A stretch of 64,000 nt of DNA, from NCBI RefSeq assembly GCF_004212215.1, contig NZ_QVFV01000001.1:210740-274739 (forward strand). Direction: 5' to 3'. The DNA comes from Leptolyngbya iicbica LK. GTDB lineage: Bacteria; Cyanobacteriota; Cyanobacteriia; Phormidesmidales; Phormidesmidaceae. The notes under the pieces were generated by a model. It saw only the letters and a list, made by a program, of their open reading frames with translations, did no database searches and was not told where the DNA came from. The first letter of the stretch is position 1. Every line of letters begins with the position of its first letter. Shown here in pieces: positions 3,401-7,916 of the stretch. The position numbers were made by a program, and so were the translations under genes.

Positions 3401-3571
3401 CTAAGTCAAAATTTGGCGGCGGCCAGTACCGCGATAAATATAGCCCTGGCTGACTAAATCGGCTGCCTCAAACTGGGCGTGGCTGGCGGTGGGTGCGATC
3501 GCGCTGCCCAAGGTCGTCACGACTGTCGCGGCGATCGCGATCGGCAAGGCACTCAAAACAATGACTTTCAT
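3401..3571 (-). CDS. patX: PatX-like small exported peptide precursor (RGTGR)
   Basis: Predicted 56-aa protein with a hydrophobic signal-peptide N-terminus (MKVIVLSALPIAIAATVV) ending near ASHA-Q, followed by a short tail ending YRGTGRRQILT. The pentapeptide RGTGR fits RG[ST]GR, the HetR-binding motif of PatS and PatX. PatX (Elhai and Khudyakov 2018) is described as a short protein with a hydrophobic N-terminus and this motif, found with HetR in filamentous cyanobacteria and preceded by a DIF1 (TCCGGA) element within 69 nt. TCCGGA is present here 51 nt upstream of the ATG. I chose the internal Met (ATG at 3569-3571) because the 31 codons before it do not look like a signal peptide. No Shine-Dalgarno is obvious. 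HetR itself is not in the window, so function is inferred from architecture. Confidence 0.72.
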   Translation of the reverse strand: MKVIVLSALPIAIAATVVTTLGSAIAPTASHAQFEAADLVSQGYIYRGTGRRQILT

Positions 3572-3622
3572 CACAAACTGAAATGTAGGGAACACTTCAC
3601 TTTTCGGTAAACCGACTGCCCA

Positions 3623-3628
3623 TCCGGA
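3623..3628 (-). promoter_or_regulatory. DIF1-type TCCGGA element upstream of patX-like gene
   Basis: The palindrome TCCGGA sits 51 bases upstream of the proposed patX start. DIF1 is known as a -35-region element of HetR-dependent promoters in Anabaena and is reported within 69 nt of patX genes. A clear -10 hexamer at ideal spacing is not evident, and I see no NtcA box (GTA-N8-TAC) just upstream, consistent with a strain that does not form heterocysts. Confidence 0.6.
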
Positions 3629-3697
3629 GAGTTCAGCACCCGCAATGGCTCCATTGCAGGGCAAGATGGATCACAGTTGTCGGGCCATGACTGAACT

Positions 3698-4546
3698 ATG
3701 GAGAAATTGGAGACCCAAAACCGACTGCGGCCTCGAGGCGGCGGCATCCCCGGCATCTTGCTGGGTTTCACCTATCCTCTACGGACACTGCGCCTGTTTC
3801 TGCGAGAAAAATCGCTGTTGCCCTTTGTGCTCATTCCCCTGGCGATCAACACGGTGCTGGGCATCACGCTGTATACGCTCGGCGTGCGGTGGGGATTGCG
3901 CCTCGTCGATACCTGGGTGCTGCAGCTCACGACCTGGCTCGAACCCGCCTGGTTGGATACCACAGTGCAAATCCTGGCCCCGGTGGTTCAGGGCGTCCTG
4001 ATTTTGCTGTTGTTCATCGTGTTGGGATTTGTGCTGCTGCAATTTGGCACCATTCTCGGTTCACCCTTTTACGGGCAAATGTCGGAAAAGATTGAACTGC
4101 TGCGGTCTGGCCAGCTAGAACGGCCCGAATCACTGGGAGCCGGAGCGATTTTTATTGACATCTGGCGGGCCATTTTGTTTGAGCTCAAAAAGCTGCTGCT
4201 GTTAGCGTTCATTGGCCTACCGCTATTGCTCTGCAACTTTATTCCCGGTGTCGGCACGCTGATCGCCACCAGCGGCGGCATTGCCCTCGCCTGTCTGCTG
4301 ATCTGTCTCGATATGTTTGATGCCCCGTTGGAACGTCGCCGCCTCAAGTTTCGCCAAAAGTTAGGCATTGTCTTTCGCGGCTTACCGGCCAGCGGCAGCT
4401 TTGCCTTCGCCTGTTTTTTCCTGGTCAGCATTCCGTTTATGAATTTGTTAGCGATTCCGGTCTGTGTGGCTTCGGGAACGCTGTTTTTCTGCGATCGCAT
4501 CCTCCAACCGCTGCCCGAGGAGGCGTCTTCGAAAGCGTCTTCCTGA
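3698..4546 (+). CDS. EI24/CysZ-like integral membrane protein
   Basis: 282-aa membrane protein with about five or six hydrophobic segments (roughly residues 42-62, 92-118, 160-180, 185-205 and 230-262) and the loop GSPFYGQMSEKIE after the second or third helix, typical of the EI24 domain (formerly DUF540) shared with the sulfate transporter CysZ. In bacteria this family includes CysZ, but cyanobacterial members are uncharacterised, so a transport role is only possible. No partner gene is adjacent: the PatX-like gene is divergent upstream and a repeat block follows. The start at MEKLETQNRLRPRGG lacks a good ribosome binding site. Family assignment is fairly secure, function is not. Confidence 0.75.
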   Translation: MEKLETQNRLRPRGGGIPGILLGFTYPLRTLRLFLREKSLLPFVLIPLAINTVLGITLYTLGVRWGLRLVDTWVLQLTTWLEPAWLDTTVQILAPVVQGVLILLLFIVLGFVLLQFGTILGSPFYGQMSEKIELLRSGQLERPESLGAGAIFIDIWRAILFELKKLLLLAFIGLPLLLCNFIPGVGTLIATSGGIALACLLICLDMFDAPLERRRLKFRQKLGIVFRGLPASGSFAFACFFLVSIPFMNLLAIPVCVASGTLFFCDRILQPLPEEASSKASS

Positions 4547-4548
4547 GT

Positions 4549-4664
4549 GGCTGGGTGATGGGGTGGTTAGGTAGCTGGGTAGTTGGGTGGCTGGGTAGCT
4601 GAGTGGCTGGGTGATGGGGTGGTTGGGTAGTTGGGTAGTTGGGTAGTTGGGTAGCGGTAAGTCA
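4549..4664. repeat. G-rich degenerate tandem repeat (GGGTAGTT/GGGTGGCT)
   Basis: Units of 7-9 bases such as GGGTAGTTG, GGGTGGCT and GGGTGATG are repeated about a dozen times directly after the EI24-type gene. Positions 4625-4651 contain four GGG tracts separated by identical 5-nt loops (TAGTT), a textbook intramolecular G-quadruplex pattern on the plus strand. Confidence 0.8.
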
Positions 4665-4739: not shown

Positions 4740-4866
4740 CTAAACTCTCACACCTGCCACCCTGCCACCCTCACACCCTGCCACCCTCGCACCCTGCCAC
4801 CCTCATACCCTCGCACCCTGCTACCCTCACACCCTGCCACTCCCCACTACCCCCTCACACTCCCCC
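4740..4866. repeat. C-rich degenerate tandem repeat (CACCCTGC/CACCCTCA)
   Basis: About fifteen near-copies of an 8-base unit (CACCCTGC, CACCCTCA, CACCCTCG) run right up to the start of the following Hsp70 gene, leaving it without a recognisable ribosome binding site. The same unit in the opposite sense (GTGTGAGG) occurs inside mfd at about 53965-54000. This is a low-complexity repeat, not a CRISPR: there are no unique spacers. Confidence 0.8.
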
Positions 4867-4875
4867 ACCCTGTCC

Positions 4876-6474
4876 ATGACCTTTGCGATCGACTTTGGCA
4901 CTAGCAACACCGTCATTACCCGCTGGAACAGCGCTACCCAAGTCCCTGAAGTGATTTCTTTGCCGGGATTGGCTCAGAAAATTGGCCAAAATCCGCCTTT
5001 GGTGCCATCGCTGGCCTATATCAAAGATGCGGCGGCGGGCAGCGTCCAGATTGGCCAACAGGTGCGCGATCGCGGGTTGGATGTGAGCAGCGATCGACGA
5101 TTTTTTCGCAATTTCAAACGCGGCATTGGCACCTCGATCCAGGGCTTTTTGCCCGAGTTGGATGGGCAAACCGTATCCTTTGAGCAAATCGGCAGTTGGT
5201 TCTTGACTGAGGTCATTGCCACCCTACAAACCCGAGAAGGCACCGCCGATGCCCTCGTTTTCACGGTGCCCGTGGACAGCTTTGAGGTGTACCGCAACTG
5301 GCTGGGGCAAACCTGTGAAGCGCTTGATTTGCAACAGGTGCGGATGTTGGATGAACCGACGGCAGCGGCGCTCGGCTACGGCATTCAGCAAGAAGAAACG
5401 GTGCTGGTGATGGACTTTGGGGGCGGCACGCTGGACTTTTCCCTGGTGGAGTTGGCGATCGCCGCTGACCGCAAACCCCTGGGCTTTATTCTGCGCTGGG
5501 GCAACAAGTCCCTGGCCGAATCCTCCTCGCAAAAGCCCCAGCGGGCCAAGGTGCTCGCCAAAGCCGGAGAAAACCTGGGCGGTGCGGACATCGATAATTG
5601 GCTGGCCGACTACTTTCACGAACAGCAAGGTATTGGGGTGACGCCCCTCACGCAACGATTGGTCGAGCGGCTGAAAATCCAGCTGTCGGACAAGGCCCAG
5701 GCGACGGAGAGCTTCTTTGACGACGAAACCCTGGACAGTCTTACCCTCAAGCTGGATCGCGCCACTTTTGAAGACATTCTGCGGCAGCGACAGTTTTTCG
5801 AGCGGTTGGATGGCTGCATGGAGCAAATCTTGCAGCAGGGACGCCGCCAGGGCATCAGTATTCAAGATATTGACGCCGTGTTGTTGGTCGGTGGCACGGC
5901 CCAAATTCCCGCCGTGCAACAGTGGCTGGCTGGCTATTTTCCATCGGAGAAGATTCGCGGAGATCGCCCCTTTACCGCCGTCGCCGAAGGAGCCTTGCAA
6001 GTGCAGCAAGGCATCGAACTCACCGACTTTCTGTATCACAGCTATGGCATCCGCTATTGGGATCGCCGCAACCGTCGTCACGGCTGGCAACCCATCATTC
6101 GCTCGGGCCAGCCTTACCCCTCGCCCGCACCGGTCGAGATGGTGCTGGGGGCTTCCACCGACAATCAGCCCAGCATTGAGCTGGTAATTGGTGAACTGGG
6201 CAACGAAGACGCCCTGGTTACGACGGAAGTGTTTTTTGAGGGCGATCGCCTGGTCACTCGCCAAACCCAAAAAGACGCCCAACAGATACAGCCCCTCAAT
6301 GACACCGGAGCCGGACGCACCATTGCCAAGTTGGACCCGCTGGGCGTGCCGGGCAGCGATCGCATTCGCGTCCAGTTTGCCGTGGATGGCGATCGCACCT
6401 TACGCATTACTGTCGACGACATCCTCACCGGGGATACCCTGGTCGAAAATCGCCCCGTCGTGCAACTGAGCTAA
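4876..6474 (+). CDS. Hsp70 family protein (DnaK-like, divergent)
   Basis: 532-aa actin-fold ATPase of the Hsp70 superfamily. The phosphate-1 loop is FAIDFGTSNT (3-12), the phosphate-2 loop VMDFGGGTLDF (about 178-188), the conserved DEPTAAALGYG lies at about 160-170, and the adenosine loop LLVGGTAQIP at about 336-345. The C-terminal part is short and beta-rich and ends without the acidic EEVD-like tail of DnaK, so it probably lacks the usual helical lid. It resembles the second class of Hsp70-like proteins common in cyanobacteria rather than a housekeeping chaperone; true dnaK follows 1.5 kb downstream. The start ATG lies at the end of a C-rich repeat block with no Shine-Dalgarno, so translation initiation may be unusual. 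Substrate unknown. Confidence 0.85.
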   Translation: MTFAIDFGTSNTVITRWNSATQVPEVISLPGLAQKIGQNPPLVPSLAYIKDAAAGSVQIGQQVRDRGLDVSSDRRFFRNFKRGIGTSIQGFLPELDGQTVSFEQIGSWFLTEVIATLQTREGTADALVFTVPVDSFEVYRNWLGQTCEALDLQQVRMLDEPTAAALGYGIQQEETVLVMDFGGGTLDFSLVELAIAADRKPLGFILRWGNKSLAESSSQKPQRAKVLAKAGENLGGADIDNWLADYFHEQQGIGVTPLTQRLVERLKIQLSDKAQATESFFDDETLDSLTLKLDRATFEDILRQRQFFERLDGCMEQILQQGRRQGISIQDIDAVLLVGGTAQIPAVQQWLAGYFPSEKIRGDRPFTAVAEGALQVQQGIELTDFLYHSYGIRYWDRRNRRHGWQPIIRSGQPYPSPAPVEMVLGASTDNQPSIELVIGELGNEDALVTTEVFFEGDRLVTRQTQKDAQQIQPLNDTGAGRTIAKLDPLGVPGSDRIRVQFAVDGDRTLRITVDDILTGDTLVENRPVVQLS

Positions 6475-7292: not shown

Positions 7293-7916
7293 ATGAAAGT
7301 TGCCGACATTATGACGTGCCCGGTTGTGACGATTCACAATACGGCCCCCGTTGCTGCTGCCGCCAAATTAATGCAGCAACGCCAGATTCAGGCGCTAATC
7401 GTGCCGCCCAGCTATGAGCAGGATGCCTACGGCATTGTGACGGTGGAGGATATCGTCGGCAAAGTCATCGCCTTTGGCCGCAATCCGCAGCACTTGCGCG
7501 TGTTCGAGATTATGACCAAGCCCTGCATCGTGCTCAATCCTGACTTGGGGGTGGAATATGCCGCCCAACTCCTGACGCGCTATCAACTCCACAGTGCGCC
7601 GGTCATCCAAAAAGAATTGCTGGGACTGCTTTCCGTGACTGATATTTTGGCGCGGAGTGATGCCCTAGAGCAGCCGCAAGAACTGCTGCTCGCCCACAAG
7701 ATTGAAGAATTGTCAGCGATCGCCCGTCAGGTTTGCCAAACGCAAGGCCCCGGTTCTGAGGCCTGCGCCAAAGCTTGGGCCGCCGTCGATGCCCTCCAGG
7801 CAGAGAGCGCTCACCAGCAAGCCAAACCCCTTGAGCAAACAGCTTTTGAAGCTTTTTGTGACGAATTTCCTGAAGCGCTGCGCGATCGCGACCTCGACGC
7901 CTGGTGCAGTGGTTAG
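7293..7916 (+). CDS. CBS domain pair fused to CP12-like domain
   Basis: 207-aa fusion. Two CBS domains (about residues 1-60 and 70-128; MKVADIMTCPVVTI and VFEIMTKPCIVLNPD begin them) form an adenylate-binding Bateman module. Residues about 135-207 match CP12, the disordered redox protein that ties GAPDH and PRK together in the Calvin cycle: a cysteine pair spaced as in CP12 (C-QTQGPGSEA-C), the core AWAAVDALQAESAHQ corresponding to AWDxVEELQAExxHQ, then FCDEFPEA and a last Cys close to the C-terminus. The second pair is spaced more widely (15 intervening residues) than in classical CP12 (about 8). Such CBS-CP12 proteins are known in cyanobacteria, including Microcystis. Likely role: energy-charge- and redox-dependent control of PRK/GAPDH; targets here are inferred. 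Confidence 0.85.
   Translation: MKVADIMTCPVVTIHNTAPVAAAAKLMQQRQIQALIVPPSYEQDAYGIVTVEDIVGKVIAFGRNPQHLRVFEIMTKPCIVLNPDLGVEYAAQLLTRYQLHSAPVIQKELLGLLSVTDILARSDALEQPQELLLAHKIEELSAIARQVCQTQGPGSEACAKAWAAVDALQAESAHQQAKPLEQTAFEAFCDEFPEALRDRDLDAWCSG

Follow-up and report, generated by a model that had tools for sequence, protein, structure and literature searches.

What is the role of a 56-codon gene with the marks of the HetR inhibitor PatX in a cyanobacterium that, judging from its named relatives, is presumably filamentous and without heterocysts? The part played by hetR and patX in filaments of this kind has been called a mystery (PMC11298460). Here, we analyse such a gene, named patX2, in a 64-kb stretch of DNA (the window) from a genome of 5.7 Mb in 16 contigs (G000), where it lies on contig C1. 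Among named organisms, Halomicronema sp. CCY15110 and a MAG of Leptolyngbya sp. SIOISBB hold the closest relatives of its peptide; Halomicronema is assigned by NCBI to Nodosilineales. PatX, as Elhai & Khudyakov 2018 are said to define it, has a hydrophobic N-terminus, RG[ST]GR near the C-terminus, a DIF1 element within 69 nt and a HetR in the genome, and its definition reportedly includes HetR-dependent expression and inhibition of differentiation.

The small gene and its promoter

The original prediction described an open reading frame (ORF) of 56 codons with a hydrophobic N-terminus, RGTGR near the C-terminus and TCCGGA 51 nt upstream of the ATG, and each of these elements was found as described (table 1). 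The translated product is MKVIVLSALPIAIAATVVTTLGSAIAPTASHAQFEAADLVSQGYIYRGTGRRQILT; its N-terminus reaches a maximum 13-residue hydropathy of 2.64, and its C-terminus reads YRGTGRRQILT, placing five residues between the pentapeptide and the stop. The frame is open up to a TTG at 3664 in the ORF list, and the ATG start is preferred because both the position of the promoter and the relatives favour it. An upstream GTG start (64 aa) was rejected, as it is not kept in the related genome G005 and lies near the predicted transcription start.

Table 1. Coordinates of features in the window and of two hetR-linked genes elsewhere.
Feature	Position	Strand	Remarks
patX2, PatX-like small gene	3401..3571	-	ATG at 3571; 56 aa plus stop
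RGTGR codons	3419..3433	-	residues 47-51, then R52
GAAAAG, presumed -10-side element	3600..3605	-	begins 17 nt after TCCGGA
TCCGGA, DIF1-type hexamer	3623..3628	-	palindromic; at the corresponding place in orthologues
CysZ/EI24-family membrane protein (PF07264)	3698..4546	+	divergent neighbour; locus marker in other genomes
Tandem array	4543-4655		8/16/56-bp units GGGTAGTT...; between EI24 and Hsp70-like gene
Tandem array	4753-4840		8-bp unit CCTGCCAC; between EI24 and Hsp70-like gene
Hsp70/MreB-like actin-fold protein	4876-6474	+	532 aa; near EI24 in several other f1 loci
CBS-CP12 protein	7293-7916	+	207 aa; joins CBS domains to a CP12 domain
hetR-linked PatX precursor of G000	L061:8952-9299	-	four RG[ST]GR copies; contig C4, outside the window
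hetR-linked PatX precursor of G034	L044:8580-8999	-	nine copies, most 12 codons apart

The combination of hydrophobic N-terminus, C-terminal RG[ST]GR and upstream TCCGGA occurs once in the window and in none of 150 first-order random windows of 64 kb each; when the hexamer is no longer required, 0.027 such ORFs arise per random window. TCCGGA taken singly is found nine times in the window, against 18 expected from composition. The ratio dN/dS is 0.21 between G000 and G004 and 0.22 between G000 and G005, two pairs with unsaturated dS on which the estimate rests, dS being saturated for G004-G005. Constraint is strongest in the tail, where dN is 0.06-0.14 over the last 16 codons. Judged by its orthologues, its retained promoter and its substitution pattern, the ORF is a real gene under purifying selection (dN/dS about 0.2). 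Rfam and tRNA scans of the 64-kb window gave no match.

The promoter of the window gene, TCCGGA-N17-GAAAAG, matches the TCCTGA-N17-GAAACA found before the hetR-linked patX of the same genome, and the promoters of its orthologues in the genus retain TCC[GT]GA-N17-GAA. There is no NtcA-type GTAN8TAC within 300 nt upstream of the gene. In Anabaena, the DIF1-type promoter is HetZ-dependent, and its hexamer precedes the point where transcription starts by about 35 bp (PMC7377430).

HetR and the hetR-linked PatX

Lack of hetR had been named as grounds for abandoning the prediction, as had lack of expression together with lack of conservation of RGTGR or TCCGGA in close relatives; neither ground holds outright. 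The window gene is conserved there, and G000 carries two HetR-family (PF03574) genes, on contigs C4 and C7, one of which, the first, passes the HetR equivalog model with 535 bits (cut-off 489). The first HetR retains R223, E253, E254 and D256, so that its pocket letters are intact; E253, E254 and D256 we take to be peptide-pocket residues. The role of R223 is taken from PMC7476756. HetR2 (L005:1195-2148, minus strand) keeps R223 and E253, but V occupies the E254 site in its peptide pocket, and the remoter HetR paralogues L092 and L183 show further changes there. Across the class, hetR was detected in 196 of 388 genomes. G000 has a nifH that exceeds the curated cut-off; G004 retains RGTGR and has no nifH above that cut-off, and nitrogen fixation was rejected as the link.

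The window gene is not the sole PatX of its genome. A paralogous ORF of 115 aa with a hydrophobic N-terminus shares its strand with hetR, which it precedes by 338 nt, and contains, in order, HRGSGR, YRGTGR, HRGSGR and YRGSGR; the YRGTGR of the window gene is identical to the second repeat. The pattern [YH]RG[ST]GR has 22 matches in G000, and the same pattern reversed, as a control, has 28. The window gene and the four repeats account for five of the 22; of the other 17, six were inspected and none looked PatX-like, and further PatX copies may exist elsewhere in the genome.

Such linkage is widespread. A PatX gene precedes hetR in 81 of 109 scanned hetR neighbourhoods, within 1 kb in 80 and at 5.9 kb in G257; the 28 neighbourhoods without one partly reflect contigs or stretches that ended early. 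TCCTGA stands before all of the 81 genes except that of G257, start codons having been picked by preferring an upstream TCC[GT]GA, which favours a hexamer, not T over G. Precursors with several motifs (two to nine) occur in 32 of the 36 genomes from the organism's own family, f1, and in none of 45 outside it. The four single-motif f1 genomes all belong to genus g13, and the maximum of nine is reached in G006 and G034. Two genomes outside f1 come close to being exceptions: G190, with degenerate extra motif copies, and G324, with the two-motif gene given below. A quick HetR tree places 44 of the 45 non-f1 rows on one side of a branch (SH-aLRT 94), and the f1 rows with one long-branch f19 row on the other; the one/many motif state changes at least four times on this tree. 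Two further arrangements were seen: a two-motif PatX-like gene with TCCTGA in G324 of family f41 (L287:1039, plus strand), for which hetR linkage is not established, and a tandem pair of patX-like genes preceding hetR in G149 (L078:6183 and 6980, plus strand).

The curated model NF047413 (heterocyst_PatX, equivalog) gave no match to the window peptide up to E = 1. NF047413 is a narrow model: its threshold is 30 bits, and with E <= 1e-6 taken as about the cut-off it recovered none of 16 f1 hetR-linked PatX proteins (out of 36), five of them at 0.01 and the best at 1.9e-6. For 12 others (10 hetR-linked and two f32 genes) the counts were three at 1e-6 and nine at 0.01, and for class-2 proteins, the unlinked type described below, two of 15 at 0.01. 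Three genes of f32, presumably a family of heterocyst formers, pass the model, with scores of 49, 62 and 78 bits; all three, from G384, G135 and G257, have TCCGGA, the hexamer of the window class. With its N-terminus, motif, DIF1 element at 51 nt and a HetR in the genome, the window gene counts as a PatX under the definition attributed to Elhai & Khudyakov, and not by NF047413. Its place on C1 and its TCCGGA also set it apart from the hetR-linked type, which lies upstream of hetR and has TCCTGA.

A second, unlinked class of PatX genes

The window gene is a member of a second class, unlinked to hetR, whose core is G[ST]GRR. The expectation of a PatX-like, DIF1-type gene in a genome with hetR held, while the simple PatX reading gave way to this class. 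Orthologues are present in all six genomes searched of the genus. A first sequence search found the gene in five of 59 genomes (G000 included), all within the genus, and the sixth, G003, was recovered through the adjoining EI24 gene. Among 24 genomes searched for EI24, 11 matched, nine of them with the small gene beside it; it lies about 7 kb from EI24 in G011, is near EI24 in two pieces in G027, and does not accompany EI24 in G014. Between the divergent genes lies a block, CATCTTGCC, that was considered as an element of the peptide gene and rejected; it is probably an EI24 element, because it is kept at EI24 in G011, where the peptide gene moved away.

Profile searches extended class 2 to families f3, f4, f10, f19, f24, f32 and f41. 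Its tail-to-tail neighbour is a protein-kinase/TPR gene, with domains read in G037 only, in the f1 genera g4 and g12, in f3, in G062 (f4) and in G198 and G285 (f24); two further f24 genomes, G097 and G259, again show the divergent arrangement with EI24. Both neighbourhoods thus span f1 and f24, which suggests that the gene is old, and the relatives indicate that the two-gene arrangement, hetR-linked plus unlinked, is old and conserved. Eight genes (G266, G044, G324, G115, G384, G135, G357 and G038) were classed as class 2 by sequence type alone, those of G357 and G038 at contig ends, and the gene of G082 was excluded from the table because it is hetR-linked. At E <= 0.001 the class-2 profile found no match in f1 genera g2 and g13, and weak matches inspected in G010 and G322 yielded no class-2 gene by the motif filter. 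HetR2 as an obligate partner of class 2 was rejected on G037, which has a class-2 gene and one HetR counted.

The hexamer sought 40-69 nt upstream of the 45 tabulated class-2 genes is TCCGGA in 23, TCCTGA in three, absent in 18 and unreadable in one, at a contig end. Where it is present, G[AT]A follows in 26 of 26, at a distance of 17 nt in 21 genes and of 18 nt in the other five. The hexamer-less genes are all 18 of genus g12, none with TCC[GT]GA at 40-69 nt; those inspected have GCTGGA-like letters at the corresponding place. Both hexamers could be read in 18 genomes, which are related and not independent events: 17 combine an unlinked TCCGGA with a linked TCCTGA, and G003 has TCCTGA on both genes. 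Conservation of the hexamer within the genus was borne out in five of six genomes, the sixth having TCCTGA. For RGTGR the expectation was half right, the motif being intact in G000, G004 and G005 and the other three reading GGTGRR.

Proposed function of the unlinked gene and comparison with known systems

We lean towards reading patX2 as the gene for a second HetR-inhibitor peptide, made as a precursor, in a cyanobacterium that is presumably filamentous and non-heterocystous. In favour of this are the HetR with its intact pocket letters, the YRGTGR shared with the hetR-linked PatX of G000, the low dN/dS, the promoter that matches the linked one, the hexamer in 26 of 45 class-2 genes, the behaviour of PatX in Nostoc, and the TCCGGA of the f32 genes that pass NF047413. 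A mechanism can be proposed by analogy with Nostoc PatX (PMC12756182) and the Anabaena DIF1 promoter (PMC7377430). Transcription of patX2 would start about 35 nt downstream of TCCGGA, near 3593, in cells with an active HetR/HetZ circuit, and the 56-aa precursor would be exported through its hydrophobic N-terminus. A periplasmic peptidase such as PatP would then trim it to YRGTGR(R), which may enter the same or neighbouring cells, bind the HetR Hood-domain pocket and lower HetR activity. The four-motif PatX under TCCTGA would be the partner source, and the window gene a separately tuned second one. In Nostoc, PatX is exported and cut by PatP, cleavage having been seen in an E. coli reporter, and the peptide PatX6 (HRGTGR) binds HetR with a KD of 88 nM (PMC12756182).

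Against this reading stand the erosion of RG[ST]GR in relatives, the loss of the hexamer in g12, the lack of an NtcA-type site upstream, and deletion transcriptomes of patX and hetR in Leptolyngbya BL0902, from which the authors conclude that the action of PatX is largely HetR-independent (PMC11298460). The motif erosion and the BL0902 transcriptomes favour a conserved exported peptide of PatX descent whose present target is not, or not only, HetR, a reading we consider distinctly less probable though far from negligible. G[ST]GRR is kept in 45 of 45 class-2 genes, partly a detection bias as the searches in part asked for that core, whereas RG[ST]GR is intact in 27 and lost in 18. The letter before GTGRR is G in G001, G002, G003, G008 and G012, and S, P or F precedes GSGRR in 13 of the 18 g12 genes. 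Because the constrained core is G[ST]GRR, the target may be a HetR paralogue, a peptidase or an envelope protein, and the altered pocket of the genus HetR2 agrees with this. Yet three orthologues of the genus keep the full motif, as do all 15 genes outside f1 (within f1 as a whole, 12 of 30 do), and the single HetR counted in G037 also speaks against another target. As for BL0902, the passages on that strain mention no second patX, and masking by another copy may be at work (PMC11298460).

A redundant or decaying PatX duplicate, of little function in this strain, is improbable. The damaged motifs of G001-G003 and G012, the hexamer loss in g12 and the lack of class-2 matches in g2 and g13 would fit decay, but purifying selection, strongest in the tail, and the retained hexamer and spacing do not. 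That ORF, motif and hexamer all arose by chance is conceivable for a short frame where single TCCGGA hexamers are common, but the conservation of protein, promoter and synteny in many genomes and the random windows refute it, and its probability is negligible.

If the gene does encode a second HetR inhibitor, filaments without heterocysts might run two parallel inhibitor sources, a linked one with TCCTGA and up to nine copies in f1 and an ancient unlinked one with TCCGGA. The DIF1 variants would then be two regulatory channels, and the TCCGGA class perhaps ancestral to heterocyst PatX regulation; we offer this wider picture tentatively and rate it as somewhat doubtful. With a second inhibitor gene and multi-copy precursors, the effect of deleting a single patX may be hidden by a remaining copy, and the two promoter forms, TCCTGA and TCCGGA, lend themselves to a reporter comparison. 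In a model-based survey (PMC12756182), Leptolyngbya-like genomes appear with hetR and no patX, as pattern 0110. Because NF047413 reached its approximate cut-off for none of the f1 hetR-linked proteins scored, such surveys may undercount patX, as far as can be judged from genomes other than those of that survey. In the open-access literature, a scope that leaves Elhai & Khudyakov 2018 outside, neither the two PatX classes nor multi-motif precursors nor TCCTGA came up; with the reservation that they may already stand in that paper, the second class and the multi-motif precursors appear to be new.

PatX of heterocyst formers is likewise small, with a hydrophobic N-terminus, RG[ST]GR near the C-terminus and TCCGGA some 50-60 nt upstream (PMC7761841; PMC12756182). 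Unlike it, the window gene coexists with a hetR-linked four-motif PatX, has the tail RRQILT, and is too distant for the curated PatX model. PatS of Anabaena, which ends in the pentapeptide motif, is likewise the source of an RGSGR-type HetR inhibitor with a TCCGGA promoter. It is a 17-aa product (PMC12756182), and its gene lies 580 nt downstream of a start point that the hexamer precedes by 35 bp (PMC7377430); the window gene, unlike PatS, has an export-like N-terminal segment and five residues after the pentapeptide. Heterocyst formers also have an 'alternative PatS', which PMC7761841 equates with PatX; it is of similar type, with 65-115 aa, Y/HRGSGR and a long N-terminal part, but prolines precede its motif and it is described beside PatS, not as a second PatX (PMC5812504). 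Closest in setting is the hetR-linked PatX of non-heterocystous strains (GFS31_32390 in Leptolyngbya BL0902), which likewise has a hydrophobic N-terminus and RG[ST]GR (PMC11298460). Its promoter spacing is the same, TCC[GT]GA being followed by G[AT]A after about 17 nt, whereas the window gene is unlinked, with TCCGGA and one motif, and the hetR-linked gene lies upstream of hetR with TCCTGA.
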